From assembly GCA_030123625.1 (NCBI GenBank), contig CP126121.1, forward strand, positions 4,318,179 through 4,382,178: a stretch of 64,000 nt of DNA, read 5' to 3'. The notes beneath the pieces were generated by a model, which was given only the letters and a program-made list of their open reading frames with translations, had not been told where the DNA came from and ran no database searches. Below are positions 7,768 to 27,428 of the stretch, piece by piece. The first letter of the stretch is position 1; each line of letters begins with the position of its first letter. This stretch comes from Nitrospira sp. Its GTDB lineage: Bacteria > Nitrospirota > Nitrospiria > Nitrospirales > Nitrospiraceae. A program made the position numbers and the translations under genes.

Positions 7768-9699
7768 TTAGAGCCGTTCCCCGTACTTTCGATAGTGTTG
7801 CTTCTTGGCGTCGGCGATCCAATTATCCCGTTTGATGCGCTCAGGATCGGTATCGAGCTTCTTGGCGATCTTCTGGATATCTTCCGGTTTCCAACGAGCA
7901 ATTTGAATAAATGTGCGGGTACCCATCTTATTGAGAGTCTGAGCCAAGGTGGGTCCGATTCCGTTAATCTTTTTGAGATCATCCGCCTGAATGTCCTTAC
8001 TGACCTTGGACGGTCCTCCCCTGGAACTCAGCTCGGCTCCATTCTGGCGGGCCGGACGAGACGGTGGGGTAGCTGAAGCCGGTTTTGCGCGAAGTTCCGC
8101 CCGTATTTCCCTGAGATGTTTTCGCAGACGATCGATGTGCTCGTCTTTCCCTGGAATAGATTGGACCGTTTTCAATAGATTCTGACGCTCCGCTTGGACC
8201 TCATGCAGCTGACGGTGGAGGCTCGCAATCTGTTCGTCTCGTTCGTGGAGTTGTTGCTCATCGAGGAGATGTTGCGTCCGGAGTTGTTCCTGCGCGGCGC
8301 ATTGGTCTTGGAGTTTCACCACCTCCCGTTCATGTTCTTGAACCATGCGCGCGTAATTTTTCCCCCATTCTTTAAGTTCTGATTCCTTCTCCCGAAGAAG
8401 ATGGGTGACCGGCACAAGTTCTTCAATGCGGCGGTCTCGCTCGGCGATGGACCGTTCGAGCTGCTGGATCATGCCGCGATGGCCGGCTTCCCGATCACTC
8501 AGTTCCACCTCCAGCTGATGCACGCGGTCTTGCGCCGACTCCAGCTTCGCCACTTGCGCTCGAAGCCGGTCTCGGTCGGCAAGGCCTTCGTTGAGTTGGG
8601 CAATATGTTCGCGCAACACCCGGATTTCCTGCTCCATGACCTCGTGCGCTTGGTCAGCGGCTCGACAGGCCTGTTGCGCGCCTCGAAGTTCTTCAGTCTG
8701 AGCGGCCGCGATGGCATCTACCTCGCTGATGCGGCGATCTCGCTCGGCGATGGACCGTTCGAGCTGCTGGATCACGCTCCGATGGCCGGCTTCCCGATCG
8801 CTCAGTTCCACCTCCAGCTGATGGACCCGGTCTTGCGCCGACTCCAGCTTCGCCACTTGCGCTCGAAGCCGGTCCCGATCGGCGAGATCTTCGTTGAGTC
8901 GGGTGATATGGTCTCGCAGGGTACGGATTTCCTCCTTCAAGACCTCCTGGGCTTGCTCAGCGGTGCGCCAGGCCCGTTGAATCTCGTAGAGTTTGTCAGC
9001 CTGAGCGGCCGCGCTCGCATCGAATTCACCGATCCGCCGGTCTCGCTCGGCGATGGACCGTTCGAGCTGCTGAATCATGTCACGATGGCCGGCTTCCCGA
9101 TCACTCAGTTCCACCTCCAGCTGATGGACCCGGTCTTGCGCCGACTCCAGCTTCGCCACCTGGGCTCGGAGTCGGTCCCGGTCGGCGAGGCCTTCGTTGA
9201 GCTGCGCGATGTGCTCCCGCAGCACCCGAATTTCCTGCTCCATGACCTCGCGCGCTTGGTCGGCGGCCCGGCAGGCCTGTTGCGCGCCTCGAAGTTCTTC
9301 AGTCTGAGCGGCTGCCATCGCATCCACCTCGCTCACACGTTGACGGGCCGCGACTCCTTCCGCTTCCAAATCCGTCAGACGTTTTGACCGTACAGCCAAT
9401 TCTGCTTCGAGCGCCTTCACCCGTTCGCCGCGGGCGGTCAGCTCTCGTTGGGCTGAGGAGTACAGCGTTTCGGACGACATGATCTTCTGTTCGAGAATCT
9501 GCATCCCCGAGGTCTTCACCTTCAAGTCATGTGACGTCGTCTCCAGCGCCTGTTCCTTGGCTCGCAACTGATTGACGAGGTCCTCGTATGGCTGCTGGGT
9601 CGAATTCTTCGGCAATCCCCGCAACAACCAACCGACCGCGACACCAATTCCTGCGGCGATGAGGAGGCATCCGACCATCTGGCTCATCAGTGTGATCAT
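7768..9699 (-). CDS. Membrane-anchored coiled-coil protein with three 101-residue repeats and a helix-hairpin-helix end
   Basis: A 643-residue protein: one N-terminal membrane segment (residues about 8-27), a long coiled coil, and a C-terminal helix-hairpin-helix-like domain (KKINGIGPTLAQTLNKMGTR, followed by W-x-x-E-D-I). Residues about 121-423 are three near-identical 101-residue units, each with LADRDRLRAQVAKLESAQDR and VHQLEVELSDREAGHR. It follows the BON/OmpA-type gene by 14 bases and is probably co-transcribed with it. The C-terminal domain resembles the short GIGP domains found at the end of bacterial coiled-coil and L21-like proteins. A structural envelope role is likely; no enzyme motif is seen. 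Confidence 0.75.
   Translation of the reverse strand: MITLMSQMVGCLLIAAGIGVAVGWLLRGLPKNSTQQPYEDLVNQLRAKEQALETTSHDLKVKTSGMQILEQKIMSSETLYSSAQRELTARGERVKALEAELAVRSKRLTDLEAEGVAARQRVSEVDAMAAAQTEELRGAQQACRAADQAREVMEQEIRVLREHIAQLNEGLADRDRLRAQVAKLESAQDRVHQLEVELSDREAGHRDMIQQLERSIAERDRRIGEFDASAAAQADKLYEIQRAWRTAEQAQEVLKEEIRTLRDHITRLNEDLADRDRLRAQVAKLESAQDRVHQLEVELSDREAGHRSVIQQLERSIAERDRRISEVDAIAAAQTEELRGAQQACRAADQAHEVMEQEIRVLREHIAQLNEGLADRDRLRAQVAKLESAQDRVHQLEVELSDREAGHRGMIQQLERSIAERDRRIEELVPVTHLLREKESELKEWGKNYARMVQEHEREVVKLQDQCAAQEQLRTQHLLDEQQLHERDEQIASLHRQLHEVQAERQNLLKTVQSIPGKDEHIDRLRKHLREIRAELRAKPASATPPSRPARQNGAELSSRGGPSKVSKDIQADDLKKINGIGPTLAQTLNKMGTRTFIQIARWKPEDIQKIAKKLDTDPERIKRDNWIADAKKQHYRKYGERL
8431..9339 (-). 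repeat. Three 303-bp in-frame tandem repeats
   Basis: Within the coiled-coil gene the coding sequence repeats with a 303-base period (101 codons). The units share long identical stretches at DNA level, which points to recent or recombination-maintained duplication. Confidence 0.85.
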
Positions 9700-10815: not shown

Positions 10816-13620
10816 CTATACCCGTTCCCCGTATTTTCGGTAGTGTTGCTTCTTGGCGTCAGCAATCCAATTCTCCCGTTTGATGCGCTCAGGATCGGTA
10901 TCGAGCTTCTTGGCGATTTTTTCGATATCCTCCGATTTCCAACGAGCGATTTGAATAAAGGTGCGGGTGCCCATCTTATGAAGGGTCTGTGCAAAGGCAG
11001 GCCCGATCCCATGGATCTTTTTGAGATCGTCCTCCTGCTTGTCCTTACTGATCTTGGGCTGCCCTCCTTGGGAACTCAGCGTGGCTCCATTCTGGCGGGC
11101 CGGGCGGGGCCCTTCCTTTGCCGGAGCTGCTTTTGCAGGCACTCCTGCTTTTTCGCGAAGGGTCCCTCTCAGTTCTTTGAGACGTTGTTGCAGGCGATTG
11201 ATCTGCTCATCTTTCCCTGGAATGCTCTGTACCTCATGTAATAAATTCTGACATTCCGCTTGAAGATCCTGTAATTGACGGTGGAAACCTGCGATCTGCT
11301 CGTCTCGTTCATGGAGCTGTTGCTCATGAAGCAGAAGTTGCTCGCGGAGTTGCTCCTGTGCCGAGCATTGTTCTTGGAAATTGACCACTGCTGACTTATG
11401 TTCTTGAACCGTACGTGCGTATTTCTTTTCCCATTCCTTGAGTTCTGCTCCTTTCTCGCGAAGAAGATTGGCTGTCGGCATAAGCTCTTCGATCCGGCGG
11501 TCGCGTTCCGCAAGCGACTGTTCGAACTGCTTCAGGGTTCCCCGATGGGCGGCTTCCCGATCGCTCAGTTCGATCTCCAACTGATGGACACGGTTTTGCA
11601 CGGATTCCAGTTTCTCCAGGTGAGCACGAAGGCGATCCCGATCGGCGAGGTCTTTATTGAGTTGCGTGATCTGGTCTCGCAGCACCCGGTTTTCTTCCTT
11701 CAAGACGTCCTGGGCTCGCTCAGCAGTTCGACAGGCTTGCTGCGCTTCGTGGAGCTTGTCCGTCTGAGCTGCCGTATGCGCATCGAACTTGCTGATCCGG
11801 CGATCGCGTTCCGCAAGCGACTGTTCGAACTGCTTCAGGGTCCCCCGATGAGCGGCTTCCCGATCACTCAATTCGACCTCGAGCTGATGCACACGATCTT
11901 GCACCTTGGAGAGTTTCTCCAGGTGAGCACGGAGGCGATCCCGATCGGCAAGGTCTTCGTTGAGTTGGGCGATCCGGTTTTGCAGAACCCGGATTTCCTC
12001 CTTTAAGAGCTCCTGCGCATGCTCGGCAGCCTGGCAGGCCTGTTGGGCGTCACGAAGTTCGTCCAGCTGAGCGATCGAGCTCGCATTGAGCTCACTGATT
12101 CGCCCATCGCGTTCCGCGAGCGACTGTTCGAGCTGCTGGAGAGTTCCCCGATGGGCGGCTTCCCGGTCGCTCAGTTCGATCTCCAACTGATGGACACGGC
12201 CTTGCACGGATTCCAGTTTCTCTAGGTGAGCACGAAGGCGATCCCGATCGGCGAGGTCTTTATTGAGTTGCGTGATCTGGTCTCGCAGCACTCTGATTTC
12301 CTCTTTCAATACCTCCTGGGTTTGCTCGGCAGCGTGACAAGCCTGTTGAGCCCCGCGAAGCTCGTCCATATGGACAGCCATAGACTTATCGAACTCACTG
12401 ATCCGGCGATCGCGTTCCGCAAGCGACTGTTCGAACTGCTTCAGGGTTCCCCGATGGGCGGCTTCCCGATCACTCAATTCGACCTCGAGCTGATGCACAC
12501 GATCTTGCACCTTGGAGAGTTTCTCCAGGTGAGCACGGAGGCGATCCCGATCGGCGAGATCTTTATTGAGTTCTGTGATCTGGTCTCGCAGCACCCGGTT
12601 TTCTTCCTTCAACACCTCCTGAGTGTGTTCAGCTGTCTGACAAGCCTGTTGGGCCTCACGAAGTTCATCCAACCTGGCCACCGCGCTCACATTGAACTCA
12701 CTGATCCGCCCATCGCGTTCCGCAAGCGACTGTTCGAGCTGCTGGAGCGATCCACGATGCGCCGCCTCCCGATTACTCAGTTCGACCTCGAGCTGATGCA
12801 CACGATCTTGCACCGACGCCAACTTCTCCAGATGGGTCCGGAGGCGATCCCGGTCGGCGAGGTCTTTATTGAGTTGCGTGATCTGGTCTCGCAGCACTCT
12901 GATTTCCTCTTTCAATACCTCCTGGGTTTGCTCGGCAGCGTGACAAGCCTGTTGAGCCCCGCGAAGCTCGTCCATATGGACAGCCATAGACTTATCGAAC
13001 TCACTGATCCGCCTATCGCGCTCCGCAAGCGACTGTTCGAACTGCTGAAGGGCCTCTCGATGAGCTGCCTCTCGATCGCTCAGCTCAACATCTAATTGAT
13101 GGACCCGGTCTTGCCTCGACTCAAGCTTCTCGACTCGGGCACGGAAATGATCCCGTTCGGCAAGGCCTTCGTTGAGTTGGGCAATATGCTCGCGCAGGAC
13201 ACGGATTTCCTCCTTCGAGACCTCGTGGGCCTGTTCGGCGATCTGACAGGCCTGTTGAGCTCCACGGAGTTCGTTGGCCAGGGCACTAACCGTTGCGCTG
13301 AGCTCACCCACGCGCTGGCGTGCTGCAACTCCTTCAGCTTCCAAGTCTGTCAGTTGTTTCGATTGTGCAGCCACTTCTGCTTCAAGCGCCTTCACTCGCT
13401 CGCCACGCGCGGTGAGCTCTCGCTGGGTTGAGGTGAACAGCGTCTCAGATGACATGATTTTCTGTTCAAGCATCTGCATTGCCGCATTTTTGACCTTCAA
13501 CTCGTGCGATGTCGTTTCCAGCGCCTGTTCCTTTGTACGCAACAAGTTAGCGAGCTGCTGGCATTGTTGCTCGAGCGAACCCTTAGAATTTTGCTGCAAC
13601 CATCTGTTCAGTGTGCTCAT
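10816..13620 (-). CDS. Coiled-coil protein with six 101-residue repeats and a helix-hairpin-helix end, no membrane anchor
   Basis: A 934-residue paralogue of the protein at 7768-9699. It has six 101-residue units (residues about 103-708) instead of three and the same C-terminal domain (KKIHGIGPAFAQTLHKMGTR to the end). The N-terminus (MSTLNRWLQQNSKGSLEQQC) lacks the membrane segment of its paralogue, so it may be soluble. It begins 14 bases after a decayed OmpA-type gene, reproducing the spacing of the intact module. Predicted to be an extended rod; function unknown. Confidence 0.75.
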   Translation of the reverse strand: MSTLNRWLQQNSKGSLEQQCQQLANLLRTKEQALETTSHELKVKNAAMQMLEQKIMSSETLFTSTQRELTARGERVKALEAEVAAQSKQLTDLEAEGVAARQRVGELSATVSALANELRGAQQACQIAEQAHEVSKEEIRVLREHIAQLNEGLAERDHFRARVEKLESRQDRVHQLDVELSDREAAHREALQQFEQSLAERDRRISEFDKSMAVHMDELRGAQQACHAAEQTQEVLKEEIRVLRDQITQLNKDLADRDRLRTHLEKLASVQDRVHQLEVELSNREAAHRGSLQQLEQSLAERDGRISEFNVSAVARLDELREAQQACQTAEHTQEVLKEENRVLRDQITELNKDLADRDRLRAHLEKLSKVQDRVHQLEVELSDREAAHRGTLKQFEQSLAERDRRISEFDKSMAVHMDELRGAQQACHAAEQTQEVLKEEIRVLRDQITQLNKDLADRDRLRAHLEKLESVQGRVHQLEIELSDREAAHRGTLQQLEQSLAERDGRISELNASSIAQLDELRDAQQACQAAEHAQELLKEEIRVLQNRIAQLNEDLADRDRLRAHLEKLSKVQDRVHQLEVELSDREAAHRGTLKQFEQSLAERDRRISKFDAHTAAQTDKLHEAQQACRTAERAQDVLKEENRVLRDQITQLNKDLADRDRLRAHLEKLESVQNRVHQLEIELSDREAAHRGTLKQFEQSLAERDRRIEELMPTANLLREKGAELKEWEKKYARTVQEHKSAVVNFQEQCSAQEQLREQLLLHEQQLHERDEQIAGFHRQLQDLQAECQNLLHEVQSIPGKDEQINRLQQRLKELRGTLREKAGVPAKAAPAKEGPRPARQNGATLSSQGGQPKISKDKQEDDLKKIHGIGPAFAQTLHKMGTRTFIQIARWKSEDIEKIAKKLDTDPERIKRENWIADAKKQHYRKYGERV
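11497..13314 (-). repeat. Six 303-bp in-frame tandem repeats
   Basis: Six coding units of 303 bases. Units 2 and 4 share the same start (DKSMAVHMDELRGAQQACHA), which suggests duplication of a two-unit block rather than single-unit copying. Confidence 0.85.
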
Positions 13621-16930: not shown

Positions 16931-17659
16931 ATGATGAGCACGCTACGGCTGAAGGACAAAGTGGCGATCGTGACGGGGAGTAGCAGCGGAATCGGCAAGG
17001 CGATCGCCCTTCGGTTCGGCCAGGAAGGAGCAAAGGTGATCGTGGCTGCGAGACGGTTGCAACTGTGTGAGCGGACCGTTTCACAAATCAGGGAGCAGGG
17101 TGGAGAGGCATGGCCAATTCAGACTGATGTATCCGACGAGCAGCAGGTCGAGCGATTGATGGCCGATACGGTGACCCGCTATGGCCGGATCGATATTCTC
17201 GTCAACAATGCCGGTATCGGAGGCGGGCGTCGCTTGGCTGAGACGAGCACCGAGACATTCGATCAGGTCATGAGCGTGAACCTGCGCGGCACCTTCTTTT
17301 GCTGTCGGGCGGGCTTCCGGCACATGAAGGAACAGGGTGGCGGCATGATTATCAGCATGTCGAGTGTCGCCGGACTGCAAGCCTGGACAGGCACCGGCAC
17401 CTATAGCGCGTCAAAACACGGCATGATGGCGCTCACCAAATCATTGGCTGACGAAGGCCGGCCTTACCACATCAAAGTCAGCGCCATCTGTCCGGGAGCG
17501 GTGGCGGATGAGTTGGTGGACGCGTCTCCGGCGGACATTGAGCGCAGCGAAAAGATCGACCCCTTCGATGTGGCGGAAGCGGCTCTGTACCTCTCGACAC
17601 TCGGGAAGTATGCCGTGGTGCATCACATCGTCATCGATCGGTTAGGCGCTGACTGGTAA
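16931..17659 (+). CDS. Short-chain dehydrogenase/reductase
   Basis: A classical SDR with the cofactor loop TGSSSGIG near the N-terminus, VNNAGIGGG, the catalytic serine in ISMSSVAG, and YSASKHG holding Tyr and Lys. It should oxidise or reduce a small alcohol or ketone with NAD(P); the substrate is unknown. The start is uncertain: an in-frame ATG at 16847 overlaps the HAD stop, but the fold begins just after the ATG pair at 16931. The last 100 bases are repeated, diverged, at 24829-24927 on the far side of the nar operon. Confidence 0.85.
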   Translation: MMSTLRLKDKVAIVTGSSSGIGKAIALRFGQEGAKVIVAARRLQLCERTVSQIREQGGEAWPIQTDVSDEQQVERLMADTVTRYGRIDILVNNAGIGGGRRLAETSTETFDQVMSVNLRGTFFCCRAGFRHMKEQGGGMIISMSSVAGLQAWTGTGTYSASKHGMMALTKSLADEGRPYHIKVSAICPGAVADELVDASPADIERSEKIDPFDVAEAALYLSTLGKYAVVHHIVIDRLGADW

Positions 17660-17661
17660 AG
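17561..17661 (+). repeat. SDR 3' end, left copy of the repeat bracketing the nar operon
   Basis: This segment, coding for the SDR C-terminus, aligns with 24829-24927 at roughly 87 percent identity by eye, in the same orientation. The two copies enclose the nar operon. Confidence 0.75.
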
Positions 17662-17770
17662 ACCTTCGATGCACGTAAGGGGAGATTCGATTATCGCACC
17701 AATCTCCTTTGATCTCATAGGCGGCAGGGATACCCGCCATGTCGGGGCCGACCACGACGATGTCCTGCAT
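17642..17770 (-). pseudogene. Truncated FAD/NAD-dependent oxidoreductase, N-terminal stub
   Basis: After narI an ATG at 17770 with AGGAGAAGGGG before it opens MQDIVVVGPDMAGIPAAYEI, the dinucleotide-binding start of a flavin disulfide/NDH-2/SQR-type oxidoreductase (usual G-x-G-x-x-G, here GPDMAG). After about 22 residues the similarity ends and the frame runs through the SDR 3' end to a stop at 17642. It is probably the next gene of the nar transcript cut at the insertion boundary. Confidence 0.6.
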
Positions 17771-17806
17771 CCCCTTCTCCTCTGATCCCGCCTCTCGACG
17801 ACCGCC

Positions 17807-18499
17807 TTACCGTCGGCGTAATCCCGGACGCATCACCTGATACGGCCGTAGGAGGTAGACCACCAATGCAAATCCGCTCCAGATGTGCACGAGTCTGCTG
17901 AACGGGATGAGAGCAAACAGCGTCATCCCTAATACCATGTGAATTTGATAGACCAGGGGCAGATCCACCGAGAAAGAAGCGGCGCCGCCGTGGAATGTGA
18001 TGATATGACGGGCCCATTGGGCCAAGGGGATCAGGTTGTCTCCTGACAGCTCCTGAGCAGAAAAATACAGTGTGCACAGGCCGAAGGACAGAGTGATGAG
18101 AATCCATACCAGCACGACCAGATCCATCAGGCGCGTGGTCGCTCGGATTCTCGGCTCCGTCATGCGCCGATGGAGAAGCATGACGAGTCCGACCAAGCAG
18201 GCGGATCCGAAGAGTCCACCGCTGATTATGGCGGTCAACTGATGTCCACGCAGACCGATGCCCATCATCCCGAACACTTCCGGCATGAGAAGGCCGACAA
18301 AATGCCCCAGGAAGAGAAACAACACGCCGACGTGGAACAGGTTGCTGCCGAACCGGAGTGTTCCGCGTCTGAGCAATTCGCTTGAATCGCTCGTCCAGGT
18401 ATACTGGCCTCGCTCGAAACGCAGCAAACTGCCGAGGAGAAACACGGAACCGGCGATGTACGGATAGATTTGAAAGAAGAATTCATGGACATCGGCCAT
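17807..18499 (-). CDS. narI: Respiratory nitrate reductase subunit gamma
   Basis: A 230-residue cytochrome b subunit with five membrane helices that takes electrons from quinol and passes them to NarH. It shows the FFFQIYPYIAGSVFLLGSLL start, the FHVGVLFLFLGHFVGLL helix with a haem histidine, the RGHQL segment, and the C-terminal pair of haem ligands in YQIHMVLG and SRLVHIWSGF. Length matches the usual 225. It starts nine bases after narJ and ends the nar operon; a truncated oxidoreductase gene follows. Confidence 0.95.
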   Translation of the reverse strand: MADVHEFFFQIYPYIAGSVFLLGSLLRFERGQYTWTSDSSELLRRGTLRFGSNLFHVGVLFLFLGHFVGLLMPEVFGMMGIGLRGHQLTAIISGGLFGSACLVGLVMLLHRRMTEPRIRATTRLMDLVVLVWILITLSFGLCTLYFSAQELSGDNLIPLAQWARHIITFHGGAASFSVDLPLVYQIHMVLGMTLFALIPFSRLVHIWSGFALVVYLLRPYQVMRPGLRRR

Positions 18500-18508
18500 G
18501 GCGTCTCC

Positions 18509-19165
18509 TCATCGGCTTGGATCGTGTCTGGTCTCACGGTGCCCGCCGTCGCCAGGCGGTTCTTTCGTCAACGTTCCCGGCATTCCCACTCGGGTCTCGG
18601 ACTGCGTCGGCCGGAGCAATCGCCTCATGTTACGGATCGGAGACGATGCTCCGGACCACGCGGAGCCGGGACTCAGCACCATCAGGGCATCGAAGGCTCC
18701 AGCGTATGGGGAACAGATCTCCGCGAGCCGGCTATGCAGAGTCTCAACAACATCTTCGATGTCGGCAAGTCGCCCTTGCGCTTCCTCCGGCGGAATCAGG
18801 GACAGGAACTCAAGGAACACCGGAAGGAAATCGGGCAACTCGCGACTCGTCACTTCCAATCCGGACCGATGGTACTCCTCAACAAGGCGAACCATTGCGG
18901 CGCCTCGGTCCCGGGATTCTCCCATGGCATGCTCGAAGATCGACAGCGAATGGGCCGGATTGCGATCGAAGGTTTCGACATAGATCTCCTGCAAATCGAT
19001 CAATCGCCCATGTTCGAAGTAGGTCAACAACCGGTCGAGCCGACGTCCCGCACGCAGGCCTCGTCCGGTCTCGGCGGACACCACCGTCCGCAACTCGCCG
19101 ATCGACTGCAGCCAGTCCTGTTCGGGATAGGTCAAGAGCAGAGCGATAGCCTTATAGAGCCTCAC
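18509..19165 (-). CDS. narJ: Nitrate reductase molybdenum cofactor assembly chaperone
   Basis: A 218-residue cytoplasmic TorD/NarJ-type chaperone that holds NarGH until the molybdenum cofactor and iron-sulfur clusters are in place. Typical features are the opening YKAIALLLTYPEQDWLQ, the EHGRLIDLQEIYVETFD segment and the ERNPAH-like DRNPAHSLSIFEHAMGESRDRG stretch containing the family's YVETFD signature. Its start overlaps the narH stop by four bases (ATGA), so translation is coupled. Confidence 0.93.
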   Translation of the reverse strand: MRLYKAIALLLTYPEQDWLQSIGELRTVVSAETGRGLRAGRRLDRLLTYFEHGRLIDLQEIYVETFDRNPAHSLSIFEHAMGESRDRGAAMVRLVEEYHRSGLEVTSRELPDFLPVFLEFLSLIPPEEAQGRLADIEDVVETLHSRLAEICSPYAGAFDALMVLSPGSAWSGASSPIRNMRRLLRPTQSETRVGMPGTLTKEPPGDGGHRETRHDPSR

Positions 19166-20706
19166 GGCCTACGGTTCCCTCTCCGAATCTCATTCACGCT
19201 GATGAATTGTGTATTCGATCGCTCCTTGCCGGCGAACAGGCTCGCCCCCGTCACCCCCTCGGAGAATCGGCTGTCGGCGGAGAAGCCGCAGGAGCCCTGG
19301 TCATCGAAGCTCTGTGATGCGGCCTCGTGATGGCTGGTTGGAATGACGTACCGGTCTTCATAATCGGCGATCGCGAGGTACCGGTACATCTCCTCGATCT
19401 GGCTTTCACTTAGCCCCAGTCCTGGCGGCGACAAGACTGCGTCGTCCCCCATGTCTTTCTTTCGCATGTATCGACGCATGGCAATCAGCCGATCCAGTGC
19501 ACCTACGATGGGCTCCTCTTTTCCCGCCGTCAGGAGATTCGCGAGGTAGCGTACAGGAATCCGGAGGGAGGAGGTATCGGGAAGCCCGTCCGGTTCCGAA
19601 GACGCGGTCTCGACTGAACCGGCGACCGGTGAGAGCGGCGGGATATACCACACCATGGGTAAGGTCCGGTATTCAGGATGGAGCGGAAATGCCAGGCGCC
19701 ACTCGACCGCCATCTTATAGACAGGCGACCGCTTGGCCGCCTCCAACCAATTGTCCGGAATCCCGTCCTGCTTCGCCTGCGCCTGTACGGCCGGATCCTT
19801 AGGGTCGAGAAACAGTCCAAGCTGGGCCTCATACAGATCCTGTTCCCGTACGACACTCGCCGCTTGTTCGATGCGGTCGGCATCGTAGAGCATCACGCCC
19901 AAGTATCGCAGGCGACCGACGCACGTTTCCGAACAAATTGTCGGCTGGCCGGATTCGATGCGCGGATAACAAAAGGTGCATTTCTCGGCCTTGCCTGTGT
20001 GCCAGTTATAATAAACTTTCTTATAGGGACACCCGCTGACGCACATCCGCCAGCCGCGACACTTATCCTGGTCGACGAGCACGATGCCGTCTTCCTCGCG
20101 TTTATAGATCGAACCGGACGGACAGGAGGCGACACAGGTGGGATTCAAACAGTGCTCGCAGAGCCGCGGGAGATAAAATAGAAAGGTATTCTCGAATGCG
20201 GCCAGGAGACCCGGATCGATTCCATCGACATTGACGTCCTTGAGGCGTTCGGCCGACTCGCCGCCAAGGTCGTCTTCCCAATTCGGACCTCCGTCAATCT
20301 TGTCCTTGACCTCCCCGGTGATGATGGACATCGGCCGAGCGGTGGGCACCATCGGTCCTTCTGGTGCGTGCTGGAGTGTGTTGTAGTCGAACGTAAACGG
20401 CTCGTAATAATCGTCGATTTGCGGCAAGTTGGGGTTCGAGAAAATGTTGGTCAGGATTCGCCAGCGAGCGCCCTGTTTCGGCTTGAGTGCGCCGTTTTCT
20501 TTACGTTGCCAACCGCCGTTCCAGCGCTCCTGATTTTCCCATTCATGGGGATAGCCGACGCCCGGCTTTGTTTCAACGTTGTTGAACCAGACATATTCCA
20601 CGCCTTCGCGCGACGTCCATACATTCTTGCAGGTAATAGAGCACGTGTGGCAACCGATGCATTTATCGAGGTTCATGACCATGGCCACCTGCGCGCGGAC
20701 TTTCAT
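19162..20706 (-). CDS. narH: Respiratory nitrate reductase subunit beta
   Basis: A 514-residue iron-sulfur subunit carrying electrons from NarI to NarG. The cysteine groups CIGCHTCSITCK, CEHCLNPTCVASCPSG, CRGWRMCVSGCPYKK and CTFCYPRI with CSETCVGR hold three [4Fe-4S] clusters and one [3Fe-4S] cluster; the tryptophan in CRGWRMC marks the latter. It starts at the ATG at 20706 after GGAGG; the longer frame to 20733 has no support. The sequence is very close in plan to enterobacterial NarH, with only the C-terminal tail after the GCGF-like GSCGFSADSRF diverging. Confidence 0.96.
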   Translation of the reverse strand: MKVRAQVAMVMNLDKCIGCHTCSITCKNVWTSREGVEYVWFNNVETKPGVGYPHEWENQERWNGGWQRKENGALKPKQGARWRILTNIFSNPNLPQIDDYYEPFTFDYNTLQHAPEGPMVPTARPMSIITGEVKDKIDGGPNWEDDLGGESAERLKDVNVDGIDPGLLAAFENTFLFYLPRLCEHCLNPTCVASCPSGSIYKREEDGIVLVDQDKCRGWRMCVSGCPYKKVYYNWHTGKAEKCTFCYPRIESGQPTICSETCVGRLRYLGVMLYDADRIEQAASVVREQDLYEAQLGLFLDPKDPAVQAQAKQDGIPDNWLEAAKRSPVYKMAVEWRLAFPLHPEYRTLPMVWYIPPLSPVAGSVETASSEPDGLPDTSSLRIPVRYLANLLTAGKEEPIVGALDRLIAMRRYMRKKDMGDDAVLSPPGLGLSESQIEEMYRYLAIADYEDRYVIPTSHHEAASQSFDDQGSCGFSADSRFSEGVTGASLFAGKERSNTQFISVNEIRRGNRRP

Positions 20707-20729
20707 AAGACCTCCATCCGATGAACGGC

Positions 20730-23700
20730 TCACGTCGCTTGAGCGTTAACGTCTAGTCGCAACGGCATCGCGCTCCATGTGACTCGTTCGAGCTTCCGCA
20801 CCACGACCATTTCGTCCCGGTTGGTCCCGACCGTTCCATAGTAGTTATAGCCATAGGCCAGGTGCGCATACCCACCGATCATGTGAGTCGGTTTCATGGT
20901 GATCCTCGTCACGCTGTTGTGAATGCCCCCGCGTCGGCCCGTAGACGGAGCCAGCGGCATGTTGATGATCTTGTCCTGCGCGTGGTACATCATGGCCACT
21001 CCGCGCGGAATCCGTTGGCTGAGGATGGCCCGCGCCACCAATGCGCCGTTCGCATTGACGACCTCGATCCAATCGTTATCCCGGATACCTGCTTCTCTGG
21101 CTTCCGCCTCCGACAGCCACACGATCGGACCACCTCGGGACAGGGTGAGCATCGGACTCGTCTCGCTGTAGGTCGTGTGAATTCCCCACTTCTGATGAGG
21201 CGTGATCCAACTGACGACGAGGAAGCTCCCATCGCCGTCTTTCATGCGACGACGAAAGGCTTCAACGGATCGAGTATTCATGGGCGGCTTGTAGACGCAG
21301 ACCTGCTCGCCGAAGAGGCGCATCCACGGATGATCCTGGTAAAGTTGTTGGCGTCCCGTCAGGGTCCGCCAGGGAACCAGCTCCTGGACGTTGGTATAGC
21401 TTCCGGTGTAGGAGACCTTTTCCGACTCGATGCCGCTCCAAGTGGGCGAGGAGATAACCTTCCTGGGTTGGGCAACCAGATCATCGAATGTGAGCTGCTC
21501 TTCGGCCCGCCCTTCGGCTAGATGTGTGTGGGATCGGCCGGTCCGTTGCGAGAGAGCCTCCCAAGCCTTGACCGCGACGCGACCGTTCGTCTCCGGCGCC
21601 AGTGTCAAGATGGCTTGGGACGCCTGTCGTGCCGTTTCCAGTTTCGGATAAGGCTCGCGATCATTGAGCGGCGTTTCGCCGTTGACCCGGCCCAGCGCTT
21701 CAACTTCTTCTTTACTGTCCCATACGATTCCCTTCGCCCCGGTCCCGAGATCTCGCGTCAGCGGCCCGAGCGCGATGTATCGGTCGTATGTTTCGCCATA
21801 GGGTCGCGTGACTACGGTCATGTTCGGCATGGTCTTGCCCGGGATGGCCTCACAATCGCCGCGCTTCCAATCGTCGGCCGACGTCGGCTGACCGAGCTCG
21901 CTCGCGGTATCGTGCAACAGAGGCGTCAAGACGAGATCGTTCCGCGTGCCAAGGACGGGCCCGGCCAGCTCGGAGAACTTCCTGGCGATCTCTTTATAAA
22001 TGTCCCAATCAGCCTTGCTCTCCCAGAGGGGATTCACCGCCTCGCACAACGGGTGGATGAAGGGATGCATGTCCGACGTGTTCAGATCGTTATTCTCATA
22101 CCAAGTCGCGCTGGGCAGCACGACATCAGAGTAGAGGCAGGTCGAGGACATACGGAAATCGAGCGTCACAAGCAGATCGAGCTTTCCCGTGGGAGCCTCA
22201 TCTCGCCACACCACCTCGCGAGGAAGCGGCGCTTCCTGTTCCTTGAGATCGGGGGCCAGAACACCGTGGGCGGCGCCGAGCAGATGTTTCAAGAAGTATT
22301 CATGGCCCTTCGCACTGGAGCCGATCAAATTAGAGCGCCAGATAAACAGGTTCCGGATAAAATTCTTGGGGTGATCGGGATCTTCTGAGGCGAATGCAAT
22401 CTTGCCGGTTTTGAGCCGTTCGACGGTATGCTCGACCGGATGCATGCCCGATGCGTCCGCTTCGCTCACCACATCGAGCGGATTCGTGTTGAGCTGAGGC
22501 GCGGAAGGGAGCCAGCCTCTGCGTTCGGCCCGCACGTTCCAATCGATGAGATGAGCCGCATCCGCATCCGGATCATCCGTTGCCGTCGGCGAGAGCGTCT
22601 CGGCCGGCCGGAGGCTTTCATACCGCCACTGGTCGGTATGCGCGTAAAAGAAGGAGGTGCCGTTCATGTGCCGAGGTGGGCGGACCCAATCGAGCGCAAA
22701 TGCCACGGTCGTCCAGCCGGCAAGCGGCCGTACCTTTTCTTGTCCGACATAATGAGCCCACCCGCCGCCCGATCGCCCGACGCATCCGCACATGACCAGG
22801 ACGTTGATGATCGCGCGGTAGATCATGTCGGTGTGGTACCACTGGTTGATCCCGTTTCCGACGATGACCAGCGAACGGCCTCGTGTCTTTTCCGCATTCT
22901 CTGCGAACTCACGGGCGAGACGAATGATCTGATGGCGACGGACGCCCGTATGTTTTTCGGCCCATGCCGGCGTATAGGGAATGTCTTGATCGTAGTTTTC
23001 CGCCGCCTGATCGTCTCCAAGCCCCCGATCGAGACCGTAACTTGCGAGCAGGAGGTCGTAGGAGGTGACCATGAGCTGGTCGCCATGAGCGGTACTGAGC
23101 CGTCTAGCCGGAACCAGATGGCGCAGGATCGGCGGGTGATCATCAGAAAAATAGGGAAAGGCAACCGACACTGTCTCCTCGGCTTGTGGAAGCATGCTCA
23201 AGGCGGGCGTTATCCGATGTCCGGTCATCGCGTCGACCAGATCGAGATTCCAGCGCCCTTTCTCACGCCACCGAAAGCCGATGCTGCCGTGGGGAACACA
23301 CAGACGCCCGGTCGCCTCATCGACAATCACTGTCTTCCAGTCCGGATTGTTGGTTTCACCCAGTTGGTCATCGAAGTCGGATGCTCGAACAAAGCGGCCC
23401 GGCTCATAGCCGTCGCCGGCTCGGCGCAGGAGGACCAACATGGGCATGTCGCTGTACTGGCGGCAATAATCCAAGAAGTAGGGACTGCGGGCGGTCAGAT
23501 GAAATTCCTTGAGGATCACATGGCCGAGCGCCATGGCCAGCGCCGCATCCGTGCCTCGCCGAGGCGCCAGCCAGTGATCCGCGAACTTGACGTATTCCGC
23601 AAAGTCCGGAGCCACAGCAACCGTCTTGGTGCCTTTGTATCGTGCAGCGGTATAGAAATGCGCGTCCGGAGTCCTGGTCTGAGGAATGTTTGATCCCCAG

Positions 23701-24452
23701 ACCACGATATAAGAGGAGTTGTACCAGTCGGCAGCCTCGCACACATCGGTCTGCTCGCCCCAGACTTGCGGGGAGGACGGTGGTAAATCGGCGTACCAAT
23801 CGTAGAATGAGGGGATGACGCCCCCGATCAACGACAGGTACCGACTGCCTGCCGCAAAGCTGACCATCGACATCGCCGGAATAGGGGAAAATCCGGCGAT
23901 GCGGTCCGGACCGTACTCCCGGATCGTATAGACATTGGCCGCCGCGATCAGCTCCGTGACTTCGTCCCATGTCGCACGCACGAAGCCTCCCTGTCCTCGT
24001 ATCGATGTATAGTGCCGGCGTTGTTGCGCGTCTTCAACGATCGATGCCCAGGCTTCGACCGGCGCCAGCGTCTTCCGAGCTTCTCGCCACAACGCCATCA
24101 GCCGGGCCCGCACCAACGGGTACTTGATGCGTTGCGCACTGTAGACATACCAGGAATAGCTCGCCCCTCTGGGACATCCGCGAGGTTCATGATTCGGCAG
24201 GTCGGGGCGTGTCCGAGGATAGTCCGTCTGTTGCGTCTCCCACGTGATCAACCCGTTCTTCACGTAAATTTTCCAGCTGCACGAGCCGGTACAGTTGACC
24301 CCATGTGTCGAGCGCACCACTTTGTCGTGATTCCAACGATCACGATAGGCATTCTCCCACGTGCGATCCTCACGCCTGACGACTCCGTGCTTCCCCGAAA
24401 ACGTGTCGAGATTTTCACGGAAGAACAGGAGCCGGTCCAAGAAATGGCTCAC
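20730..24452 (-). CDS. narG: Respiratory nitrate reductase subunit alpha
   Basis: A 1240-residue molybdenum subunit reducing nitrate to nitrite on the cytoplasmic side. HGVNCTGSCSWKIYVKNGL and EPRGCPRGASYSW supply the His and Cys ligands of the [4Fe-4S] cluster FS0, and YNSSYIVVWGSNIPQTRTPD holds the molybdenum-binding region. No twin-arginine signal is present, unlike periplasmic nitrite-oxidising NxrA of Nitrospira. It is a close relative of proteobacterial NarG across its whole length. First gene of narGHJI; no narK transporter is visible. A palindrome lies 41 bases upstream. Confidence 0.97.
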   Translation of the reverse strand: MSHFLDRLLFFRENLDTFSGKHGVVRREDRTWENAYRDRWNHDKVVRSTHGVNCTGSCSWKIYVKNGLITWETQQTDYPRTRPDLPNHEPRGCPRGASYSWYVYSAQRIKYPLVRARLMALWREARKTLAPVEAWASIVEDAQQRRHYTSIRGQGGFVRATWDEVTELIAAANVYTIREYGPDRIAGFSPIPAMSMVSFAAGSRYLSLIGGVIPSFYDWYADLPPSSPQVWGEQTDVCEAADWYNSSYIVVWGSNIPQTRTPDAHFYTAARYKGTKTVAVAPDFAEYVKFADHWLAPRRGTDAALAMALGHVILKEFHLTARSPYFLDYCRQYSDMPMLVLLRRAGDGYEPGRFVRASDFDDQLGETNNPDWKTVIVDEATGRLCVPHGSIGFRWREKGRWNLDLVDAMTGHRITPALSMLPQAEETVSVAFPYFSDDHPPILRHLVPARRLSTAHGDQLMVTSYDLLLASYGLDRGLGDDQAAENYDQDIPYTPAWAEKHTGVRRHQIIRLAREFAENAEKTRGRSLVIVGNGINQWYHTDMIYRAIINVLVMCGCVGRSGGGWAHYVGQEKVRPLAGWTTVAFALDWVRPPRHMNGTSFFYAHTDQWRYESLRPAETLSPTATDDPDADAAHLIDWNVRAERRGWLPSAPQLNTNPLDVVSEADASGMHPVEHTVERLKTGKIAFASEDPDHPKNFIRNLFIWRSNLIGSSAKGHEYFLKHLLGAAHGVLAPDLKEQEAPLPREVVWRDEAPTGKLDLLVTLDFRMSSTCLYSDVVLPSATWYENNDLNTSDMHPFIHPLCEAVNPLWESKADWDIYKEIARKFSELAGPVLGTRNDLVLTPLLHDTASELGQPTSADDWKRGDCEAIPGKTMPNMTVVTRPYGETYDRYIALGPLTRDLGTGAKGIVWDSKEEVEALGRVNGETPLNDREPYPKLETARQASQAILTLAPETNGRVAVKAWEALSQRTGRSHTHLAEGRAEEQLTFDDLVAQPRKVISSPTWSGIESEKVSYTGSYTNVQELVPWRTLTGRQQLYQDHPWMRLFGEQVCVYKPPMNTRSVEAFRRRMKDGDGSFLVVSWITPHQKWGIHTTYSETSPMLTLSRGGPIVWLSEAEAREAGIRDNDWIEVVNANGALVARAILSQRIPRGVAMMYHAQDKIINMPLAPSTGRRGGIHNSVTRITMKPTHMIGGYAHLAYGYNYYGTVGTNRDEMVVVRKLERVTWSAMPLRLDVNAQAT

Positions 24453-24492
24453 ATTTGACTCCCCGTGGAATGAGACGGGAAAATGACTTTAA

Positions 24493-24507
24493 TGATCCAA
24501 AGGATCA
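24493..24507. promoter_or_regulatory. Perfect 15-bp palindrome upstream of narG
   Basis: TGATCC-AAA-GGATCA lies 41 bases before the narG start. It does not fit the FNR/ANR consensus TTGAT-N4-ATCAA because its TGAT and ATCA halves are seven bases apart. It could be an operator for another regulator or a transcript hairpin. Confidence 0.35.
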
Positions 24508-24706
24508 CCCTCTCAGACGACACCTCAGAATCTCCTCGCGCATGATCGCTTCCGACGTTCTCCGCCTTGCCCAGTAGCACCCTGCCTCTGGTAGGAGCGG
24601 TGACGTTATCGTAATCTTGTGGCAATTTGAATTCGATCTATGACCGTCAGGATATCGAGAGTCATCGGGCATCAAACTAGTGTTCGACAGCCTGCTAAAA
24701 TGGCGT

Positions 24707-24826
24707 ATGAGCTCCCCGCCGTATGACGTATCGTCATGTTCCTCTCTCGTCGACTGGGAAGTTCCCCAGATCAAGCGCCGGCTTGACCGTGACCGCATGG
24801 ATTCCGTGCTCACCTTGATGCATTGA
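24707..24826 (+). CDS. Possible small protein or gene fragment upstream of narG
   Basis: A 39-codon open frame (MSSPPYDVSSCSSLVDWEVP, later RRLDRDRMDSVLTLMH) with a protein-like composition. There is no clear ribosome binding site and I recognise no family. It ends just before the SDR-derived fragment. It may be a fragment carried in with the nar operon. Confidence 0.2.
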   Translation: MSSPPYDVSSCSSLVDWEVPQIKRRLDRDRMDSVLTLMH

Positions 24827-24828
24827 TG

Positions 24829-24927
24829 CCGTTCGATGTGGCGGAAGCAGCTCTGTACCGCTCGACATACGGAAGTATGCCGTGGTCCACCACATCGTCA
24901 TCGATCGGTCAGGCGCCGAGCGGTGAA
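24829..24927 (+). pseudogene. Duplicate fragment of the SDR gene 3' end
   Basis: This matches 17561-17661, the last 33 codons of the SDR gene, with about 13 differences including one missing base that shifts the frame. Several changes are synonymous (GTG CAT to GTC CAC). No upstream part of the gene is present, so it is a remnant. Confidence 0.75.
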
Positions 24928-24929
24928 GC

Positions 24930-25089
24930 GCCTCACACGTGATCGAGTCTTCTGTAGTGATAACAATGGGGGCTACAGGATATCAGCAGTGCATGAACGG
25001 GACTGAGGTGACATAAGGAATGGGCTCACCCGTATACGGTGAGCCCGTAGAGGCGGTGACATACTTCAGTCGCCACTCGGGCAGTGGCA
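24930..25089. other. Remaining intergenic stretch between SDR fragment and RsbRD-like gene
   Basis: Together with 24453-24828 this makes about 640 bases without a firm gene. Apart from the palindrome, the SDR fragment and the hairpin at 25022-25046, I see nothing supported in it. Confidence 0.4.
25022..25046. terminator. Hairpin downstream of the RsbRD-like gene
   Basis: A nine-base-pair perfect stem (GGGCTCACC and GGTGAGCCC) with a seven-base loop, placed 44 bases after the stop of the minus-strand gene at 25090. The following T-run is weak, so termination is probable but not certain. Confidence 0.55.
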
Positions 25090-25575
25090 TTAGACCGATA
25101 CTTTCTGATGATCGTCCCTCCGCCTGCGGAGGTTCGTTCCGATGCGGGTACGCTCGCTTTCATATCCCATCGCTGTATAGTACAACGCACGATCAAAAAA
25201 CTGACTCAAGACGTGCATGAGTTCCAACTCGCCGTGCAGCTCGACGGCGCTATCGGACAATCCCTCGCGCTGAACAAAGGCCGTCATATGTTCTCTGGTA
25301 GCGGTGATGGCCCAGAGGAAGTGGCTGTAGGCAACGCCCTGTGCGGCTCGCCGGGCGCCGAGCTCCGTGTACCGGCGCTCGATTTCGCTTTCGGTCATGT
25401 CCATCAACCAATTGTTCAAGTTTTGGTAGATCTCGCGGGTGCGGGCTTGGAGTTCGTCCGGTGGGACTTTTCGCAAATCGCTACAACGGGGAGAATTCCA
25501 CACTTTCTCGCTCAGCTCGTGAGCGAGTTTTTCGGAGTTCTTCTCGATCAGCCTCACCAATCGGCCAGCCAGCAT
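25090..25575 (-). CDS. RsbRD N-terminal-domain-like protein
   Basis: A 161-residue mainly helical protein that resembles the N-terminal sensor domain of RsbR/RsbRD stressosome co-antagonists (for example LVRLIEKNSEKLAHELSEKV and RRAAQGVAYSHFLWAITATR). No STAS domain follows, so it is a stand-alone version. Such domains are thought to bind a ligand or haem and signal to partner kinases; no partner gene is adjacent. Assignment rests on overall pattern and is moderate. Confidence 0.5.
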   Translation of the reverse strand: MLAGRLVRLIEKNSEKLAHELSEKVWNSPRCSDLRKVPPDELQARTREIYQNLNNWLMDMTESEIERRYTELGARRAAQGVAYSHFLWAITATREHMTAFVQREGLSDSAVELHGELELMHVLSQFFDRALYYTAMGYESERTRIGTNLRRRRDDHQKVSV

Positions 25576-25874: not shown

Positions 25875-27428
25875 ATGGCCGGCATCAAGCGGGCGTTGAT
25901 CAGTGTTTCGGATAAGACCGGAGTCATCGAGATGGCGAAGGGACTGGAAGCGCTTGGCGCAGAAATTTTGTCCACGGGAGGAACGGCCAAAGCGTTGCGC
26001 GACGCCGGGGTGAAGGTCACGGATGTCGCGGCCTATACGGGATCCCCGGAGATTCTCGATGGTCGAGTGAAAACGTTGCACCCCAAGATTCATGGCGGCT
26101 TGCTGGGACGCCGGTCGCTTCCGGCGCATGTCGAGCAGATGAAGCAGCATGGAATCGGTCCCATCGACGTGGTGGTGGTCAATCTCTACCCCTTTGAAGC
26201 CACAATCGCGAAGCCTGATTGCCATTTTGAAGACGCCATTGAAAACATCGACATCGGTGGCCCCTCCATGTTGCGGTCGGCAGCCAAGAATCATGACGAT
26301 GTGTTGGTCGTCGTCGATCCGGCCGATTATTCGCGGGTGCTGGAGGCGGTGAACGGCCATACGGTGACACCGGCGCTGCGCCGGGAGTTGGCGATGAAGG
26401 TCTTTCAGCATACGGCACGCTATGACGGATTGATCGCCGGCTATTTGGAGAAACACGTTCAAGCAAGAGAGATCAAATTTCCCAAAGTATTGTCGCTTCA
26501 GTTTGAGTTGGCGGAGTCCCTCCGCTACGGAGAGAATCCTCATCAGCAAGGCGCGTTCTATCGTGAGTTGGCCGGCAAAGAGCCGTCGGTTTCTCGCGGG
26601 AAGATCTTGCACGGCAAGGCGATGTCCTACAATAACTTCCTCGATGCGAATTCCGCCCTTGAGTTGGTAAAGGAATATGAAGAGACGGCCGTCGCGATCA
26701 TCAAGCACAATAATCCCTGTGGCGCGGCGCTCGGCGAGACACCGGTGGAGGCGTACGTCAAGGCGAGAGAGACGGATCCCGTGTCTGCCTTCGGCGGCGT
26801 GATCGCTTTCAACCGACCGGTGGATCTGGCGGCTGCCAAGGAAATCACGTCCACGTTTGTTGAGGTCGTGATTGCTCCAGGATTCGCTCAAGACGCGTTG
26901 GCGGAATTGAAGCGGAAAAAGGATTTACGCTTATTGGACGTGGGACCGTTGACCAAGGTGAAACAAGAAGGGTTTGATCTGAAGAAACTTGTCGGCGGGC
27001 TCATTGTCCAGGATCGCGATCTCGGTGTCTTGCCGGATCTTCGCACGCTCGCTGTGCCGACTATCCGTAAGCCGACGGATGAAGAATATGCCGCTTGTGC
27101 GTTTGCGTGGAAAGTCTGCAAACACGTCAAGTCCAACGCCATTATCTATGCCAAGCCGGGTCAGACCGTCGGCATCGGGGCAGGACAGATGAGCCGTGTA
27201 GATTCCGTGAAGTTGGCGGCCATGAAAGCGCAACTACCGGTCAAAGGTTGTGTCATGGCTTCGGACGCCTTCTTCCCGTTCCGCGATGGCCTCGATGCCG
27301 CAGCCGAAGTCGGTATTACAGCCGTCATTCAACCCGGCGGATCGATCCGAGACGCAGAAGCCGTCAAAGCCGCGGATGAACATGGGATGGCGATGATTTT
27401 GACCGGCATGCGGCATTTTCGACATTAG
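25875..27428 (+). CDS. purH: Bifunctional AICAR transformylase/IMP cyclohydrolase
   Basis: A 517-residue enzyme doing the last two steps of IMP synthesis: formylation of AICAR and ring closure. The N-terminal cyclohydrolase (MGS-like) domain begins [20 protein letters not shown] and includes [15 protein letters not shown]; the C-terminal transformylase has the [12 protein letters not shown] loop and [14 protein letters not shown]. Length is normal. It is followed after about 140 bases by purD on the same strand, with a stem-loop repeat between them. Confidence 0.97.

Follow-up and report, generated by a model that had tools for sequence, protein, structure and literature searches.

Why does the nitrate reductase operon of a Nitrospira chromosome end in a 42-codon open frame that resembles the beginning of an oxidoreductase gene? 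The frame lies in the window, the whole 64-kb stretch of DNA analysed here, which belongs to a closed chromosome (genome G000; single contig, 4.69 Mb), and it was compared with a set of 79 genomes of the genus, G000 included. As far as the accessible parts of the publications go, Nar has been described in comammox Nitrospira LK70 (PMC7078480) and in NOB01, in a study that also proposes NarG exchange between Nitrospira and Proteobacteria (PMC11327836), and it is confined to a few Nitrospirales genomes (PMC12342949). In our set, narG is present in seven of the 79 genomes, the copy in G084 being partial and at a contig end. The window resembles the published Nitrospira narGHJI, in those accessible parts, in having all four subunits. 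They lie within one operon on the minus strand, and all exceed the NCBIfam equivalog cut-offs: narG, with a GTG start (20730–24452; TIGR01580, 1997.4 bits, cut-off 1084.15), narH (19162–20733; TIGR01660, 860.9 bits, cut-off 524.05), narJ (18509–19165; TIGR00684, 108.9 bits, cut-off 59.35), and narI (17807–18499; TIGR00351, 222.3 bits, cut-off 105.55).

The truncated frame after narI

The original prediction held that a strong binding site and 22 residues of a flavin oxidoreductase follow narI, and that the similarity then stops just before the end of a short-chain dehydrogenase (SDR) gene. An RBS-like sequence, GAGGAGAAGGGG (17771–17782, minus strand), does stand ahead of the 42-codon frame (17642–17770, minus strand), whose translation is MQDIVVVGPDMAGIPAAYEIKGDWCDNRISPYVHRRSLPVSA followed by a stop. 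Read from 17770 to 17642, the frame begins MQDIVVVGPDMAGIPAAYEIKG and then passes into unrelated letters. Its start is 36 nt past the narI stop. The corresponding gap is 35 nt in two other nar-bearing genomes, G001 (locus on JAICWG010000007.1, L009) and G016 (JACOEH010000009.1, L010), where the sequence GAGGAGAAGAG is followed, at the same place 3' of narI, by a 506-codon frame, here called the fifth gene. Residues 1–22 of the stub are identical to the G001 protein at 13 of 22 positions and to the G016 protein at 12 of 22, and the stub DNA is 86% identical to that of G001 over 72 query bases (E = 9.9e-17). A probe made of residues 1–20 of the G001 protein scores 73 at the stub and 23 at the runner-up among 127,876 twenty-residue windows in six frames, which excludes a chance match. 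The similarity on the nar side stops at 17709 (against G001) or 17715 (against G016), 20–22 codons into the gene and ~47 bases short of the SDR 3' end, much as had been predicted.

By itself the stub has no match in Pfam (E ≤ 0.1) or NCBIfam (E ≤ 0.001), so that its identification rests on position and pairwise similarity; the final 20 codons of the open frame have no convincing match. Among the 79 genomes, strong matches to the stub DNA are confined to the nar-bearing G001 and G016 (E is 0.002 or worse elsewhere), and the stub does not occur unchanged in genomes without nar. It is exceedingly improbable that the 42-codon frame encodes a functional small protein. Its start codon and RBS-like sequence are both intact, as such a role would call for; however, its second half is joint DNA for which no source was found, its FAD motif is altered (GPDMAG versus GAGIAG), and in full length it exists in G000 only. 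The first 20–22 codons of the frame are very probably what is left of the 5' end of a fifth narGHJI gene, related to sulfide:quinone oxidoreductase (SQR), the nar block having been inserted after the SDR gene with a left joint that cuts the fifth gene.

Insertion site and joints

The SDR gene (16937–17659, plus strand; Pfam adh_short, 1.3e-63) is intact and is matched in 49 of the 79 genomes (E ≤ 1e-60). Gene order in the SDR loci identifies its native right neighbour as a 161-codon gene, which in the window lies at 25090–25575 on the minus strand, with purH as the next flank gene (25875–27428, plus strand; TIGR00355, 687.6 bits, cut-off 528). At 14 of the 30 SDR loci checked, the SDR gene and the convergent 161-codon gene are 82–952 nt apart on opposite strands, and purH comes next in several of these (e.g., L088–L092 and L095–L097). 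The 16 loci without this pairing include the window, where a nar block of 7.17 kb (17662–24828) separates the two genes. The pair is adjoining in all six other nar-bearing genomes, namely G016, G084, G018, G012, G030 (L088, L089, L090, L091, and L096, respectively), and G001 (L247). The window therefore differs from these genomes in carrying nar at a site that is empty in them, and also in having nar without their narG upstream region. Given this unoccupied site in nar-bearing relatives, the stub marks a recombination joint, as had been claimed; a refinement is that it is one of two joints, each bordered by a copy of the SDR 3' end.

The duplication is apparent from the comparison with contig C46 of G016, with which the 64-kb window is otherwise collinear (33 genes compared). 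The match to this locus runs to 17661 and resumes at 24829, and both stretches cover the same ~100 bases of the relative; therefore the window has two SDR 3' ends. The left copy (17561–17661, plus strand) closes the intact SDR gene, and the right copy (24829–24928, plus strand), with which it aligns, is decayed and leads into the native sequence downstream of the SDR gene. A single SDR 3' end is found in all three relatives compared (G016, G084, and G001). The alignment of the two copies, 101 columns long, contains 12 mismatches and one gap (~87% alike); with 13 columns divergent by now, the integration is not recent.

Two features of the flanks may be recorded here. A hairpin, GGGCTCACC...GGTGAGCCC (25022–25046), belongs to the intergenic DNA that natively borders the SDR gene on its right, and similar sequence is found 3' of the SDR gene in G016 and G084; the insertion now parts the SDR gene from this hairpin. 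Further to the left, two long repeat-rich, coiled-coil-like proteins of 643 and 934 residues are encoded at 7768–9699 and 10816–13620; their C-terminal ends are very similar and, by eye, helix-hairpin-helix-like, and the 643-residue protein has just 71% identity in G016.

Inside the repeats, the coding block is bordered by two pieces of DNA. On the left, 47 bases (17662–17708) extend from the SDR 3' end to the limit of nar-side similarity, and no convincing relative of this piece was found in the loci compared or in the 79 genus genomes. On the right, the nar-side similarity has its limit at 24451, at the start of narG, in comparison with the five relatives in which the narG start is available. 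The start codon is ATG in these five and GTG in the window, and a piece of 376 bases (24453–24828) replaces the region that the five have in common 5' of narG. For the 350 nt upstream of narG, the ten pairs among the five relatives score 145–398 against shuffle maxima of 22–32, whereas the five pairs with the window score 16–20 and none exceeds its own shuffle maximum. No source of the 376-base piece was found in the 78 other genomes of the genus, where matches span 22–45 bases only, and neither the rest of the fifth gene nor the relatives' narG upstream region was found elsewhere in G000. There is no visible step in base composition at either joint, no Rfam match at gathering level between 17500 and 25200, and no terminator hairpin at the left joint that stands out from shuffled sequence (170 and 155 of 200 shuffles fold equally well or better on the two strands). 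A promoter scan gave a single weak match, which is not on the strand of narG.

We propose that a coding block reaching from the narG start codon to codon 20–22 of the fifth gene was inserted 3' of the SDR gene, with the left joint truncating the fifth gene. A repeat of ~100 bp on both sides suggests that the target end was duplicated on integration, either by single crossover of a circle or by repair of a staggered break. A decayed integrative element, whose site-specific integrase would have used the SDR 3' end as its attachment site, would account for the repeat as attL and attR. A direct repeat at the 3' end of a gene that is itself left intact fits such an element, as does the fact that at 16 of the 30 SDR loci, the window included, something other than the 161-codon gene lies within 1.5 kb downstream. 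However, the putative attL and attR copies are just ~87% alike over ~100 bp. Neither an integrase nor a transposase was found in the insert, and in particular the ten long non-nar frames scanned have no Pfam match at E ≤ 0.01. We consider such an element unlikely.

Dispersed repeats offer another route, in which a transposon or repeat-mediated capture would have used copies such as the one upstream of narG. At 24684–24700, the minus strand carries one end of a dispersed repeat, TAGCAGGMTGYYGAAMA, which has 15 copies in the G000 chromosome, with 0 for the reversed control, and a similar repeat stands upstream of narG in G001. At the inner ends, a direct similarity, ACCTT[C]GATGCA, is equalled by five of 200 shuffles when the last 60 bases are considered, a borderline result, but by 34 of 200 over the whole right piece. 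No copy of the repeat is seen at the left joint. Capture of this kind is assigned a low probability, below that of the integrative element. Upstream of narG the repeat copy is degenerate. At several copies the DNA that comes next is also similar and has a partner end resembling TTTTTGAACATCCTGC, which recalls the layout of a miniature transposable element. Target-site duplications and inverted repeats at the inner ends were also looked for and are no better than shuffles over the whole right piece. A plasmid origin was considered and set aside, as two plasmid records gave partial matches at 72–73% and no close copy; the fifth protein has no plasmid match at E ≤ 1e-60. The window presents nar as a nearly bare coding block on a closed chromosome, at a new site and with a new upstream region.

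Lateral source or relocation

The original prediction attributed the stub to a donor nar operon with an extra oxidoreductase gene. The extra gene does stand intact 3' of narI in relatives; between a lateral donor and a move inside G000, the former is favoured but unproven. At fourfold sites, G000 differs from G016 by a median of 0.179 in the flanks (33 genes, range 0.058–0.453) and by 0.28–0.35 in the nar genes, and from G084 by 0.155 (13 genes) and 0.21–0.32, respectively. Towards the more distant G018, the flank median is 0.438 (21 genes) and the nar genes differ by 0.29–0.35. The nar values overlap with those of the flanks, as eight of 33 flank genes are at 0.28 or more from G016 and eight of 21 are below 0.35 from G018. 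Because nar falls within both flank ranges, what speaks for a lateral source is the pattern and not any outlier: the silent-site distances of nar track those of the surrounding genes poorly, nar being unusually far from the near clade and unusually near to the far clade, which favours a lateral source and does not prove it. There is accordingly moderate support, from these distances, for a nar block that would have come from another, unsampled Nitrospira and not from a move inside G000.

Relocation within the genome would mean that nar once stood at the relatives' site, near transaldolase and transketolase genes, and moved next to the SDR gene, the old site then being lost. Each of the six other nar-bearing genomes has a transaldolase-fusion gene close to nar, and the divergence of nar lies within the range of the flank genes, as such a move would have it. 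However, nar is more distant from G016, and closer to G018, than the median flank gene is, and the single transaldolase match in G000 has 49% identity. When the 19.9-kb G016 stretch around nar (L150) was compared with G000, it matched the nar block plus 12 scattered pieces, the sole ordered set of which comes from just upstream of narG in G016 and falls at 2461442–2463464 of G000, with a similarity of up to 89%; its pieces look like stress-protein and NAD(P)H-dehydrogenase genes. L150 was the only query in this whole-genome search for an old nar site; the outer flanks were compared with three stretches. We regard relocation as somewhat unlikely. The locus near 2.46 Mb was rejected as the old nar site, as it has its own G016 counterpart elsewhere (contig C94).

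Other observations concern the nar surroundings in the relatives. In G018 (L154), nar stands amid sugar-metabolism genes, for a transaldolase/phosphoglucose isomerase fusion, transketolase, phosphogluconate dehydrogenase, alpha-glucan phosphorylase, and GAPDH; the transaldolase fusion is not near nar in G000. Upstream of narG in G016 (L150, 18012–18968), a stress-protein-like gene has next to it pieces of an NAD(P)H-dehydrogenase-like gene that lacks its middle (both named by eye). These pieces resemble the gene at 2462082–2463392 of G000 and represent a second decayed flavoprotein gene beside nar. The operon itself has a mosaic look in relatives, the difference between G016 and G001 being 0.049 in narI and 0.094 in narG. 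The narJ of G030 (L155) differs by more than 0.3 per base from all other Nitrospira narJ, which is not so for its own narG, narH, and narI, and this suggests an exchange inside the operon.

The fifth gene and its protein

The fifth gene is intact in two of the seven nar-bearing Nitrospira (G001 and G016) and lost or cut in the other five, with four kinds of end point. In G000 it is cut at the insertion joint. In G012 and G018 about five codons are left, followed by mutually similar DNA, and these two losses are probably one event. In G030 (L007, the LK70 record) the RBS is joined via GAGGAG to the last 13 codons and stop of the gene, and in G084 (L008) a deletion runs from the narI stop into the following SLAC1-family gene. 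G000 has lost the fifth gene yet retains four open nar genes; therefore, the gene is dispensable for keeping Nar, and all that its loss in five Nitrospira shows is that Nar can persist in its absence.

A search for full-length homologues directly 3' of narI, which had been suggested as a check, found them in two of the six other nar-bearing Nitrospira and also outside the genus. The gene occurs at six of 76 non-Nitrospira narI loci, at five of them directly 3' of narI (25–52 nt from the narI stop to its start, or 35–62 nt when counted to its fourth codon) and at one a gene later, and four of the six carrier loci (L011–L014) are the top non-Nitrospira narI matches. In Thiobacillus denitrificans, the oxidation of sulfur is coupled to denitrification. 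Long-form loci above 600 bits number at least 46 in the family of T. denitrificans UBA5601 (Thiobacillaceae), spread over at least 43 of 117 genomes; these counts are lower bounds, since up to 12 candidates were scored per genome, and the profile used for selection was built from eight cysteine-less proteins and may favour such forms. The next match below the long forms scores 510 bits and covers the first 400 positions only. Of the 43 long-form loci that could be tested, 42 have narI upstream and on the same strand (39 at 150 nt or less from the end of the narI match, two at 163–165 nt, and one at 605 nt), three further loci being cut by a contig end and lying outside the 43. The exception, L235, has 401 residues to the stop and no narI within 4.2 kb. 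One member of the long-form set, L195, is the same locus as L054.

The narH tree was considered as a guide to the donor. It places Nitrospira and the SQR-carrying proteobacteria in one supported set of 17 rows; because this set also has seven gene-less rows and the Nitrospira branch is long (0.85), no donor can be named from it. Fourteen of the 80 loci, the gene-carrying L040 among them, were omitted, their narH match being too short.

The intact fifth protein matches Pfam Pyr_redox_2 (1.2e-20) and resembles the SQR of Acidithiobacillus ferrooxidans (3sx6/3kpk) over residues 4–398 (E = 2.7e-73), including the GxGxxG FAD motif and the equivalent of His198. It differs from that enzyme in a C-terminal extension of ~100 residues, in its position 3' of narI, and in four residues, as the equivalents of Cys128, Cys160, Cys356, and His132 are replaced in all 54 aligned rows. 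The catalytic roles of Cys160, Cys356, and other SQR residues are taken from the accessible part of PMC6335251. Of the 54 fifth-protein rows in the alignment, 50 are 500 residues or longer, and six canonical Nitrospira paralogues were aligned with them. Those cysteines and His132 are kept in all six paralogues and in none of the 54 rows; His198 is retained throughout, in 54 of 54 rows and in the paralogues, and GAGIAG is found in 51 of the 54 rows, the other three having gaps there. Since the defining SQR cysteines were tested and are absent, the fifth protein is classed as a relative of SQR and not as SQR. The flavin oxidoreductase originally proposed thus stands, as an SQR relative with an FAD motif, and is to be refined as one without the SQR cysteines. 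A canonical SQR-like paralogue of G000 itself (2229412–2230581) belongs to the same superfamily, with 36% identity, but is shorter and, by eye, retains His132 and all three cysteines; it is not the source of the stub. A structure model of the intact fifth protein, made from an eight-row alignment, had a mean pLDDT of 61 and was too weak to use.

As judged from its sequence, the intact fifth protein belongs to the SQR superfamily as a flavoprotein and has none of the sulfide-handling cysteines; a quinone-linked activity is plausible for it. The leading reading of its role, which we put forward with slightly less than even confidence, is that it would pass electrons from a donor other than sulfide to the quinone pool used by NarI; alternatively, it may help Nar non-catalytically. 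More tentatively still, the conserved fifth narGHJI gene of Thiobacillus relatives, some other proteobacteria, and some Nitrospira could encode a cysteine-less, C-terminally extended SQR relative that serves Nar as a dedicated non-sulfide electron-input flavoprotein, and Nitrospira may have gained operon and gene together and now be losing the gene repeatedly (four kinds of loss in seven genomes).

The fifth gene, in which the nar operon of the window ends in cut form, is unmentioned in the accessible parts of PMC7078480, PMC11327836, and PMC12342949. Nar in Nitrospira is already known, and no description of a narI-linked SQR-like or flavoprotein gene was found in open-access titles and abstract openings, which is weak evidence of absence. 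With two intact genes in seven genomes, Nitrospira offers a natural deletion series for the fifth gene and suggests its dispensability. SQR-like genes are taken as signs of sulfide oxidation, and a nar-linked relative without the sulfide-handling residues could mislead in this respect; if the non-sulfide reading is true, the fifth protein would easily be mistaken for a sulfide:quinone reductase. To judge by its residues and its place in the operon, this nar-linked SQR relative points to a further electron donor or a helper of nitrate respiration.
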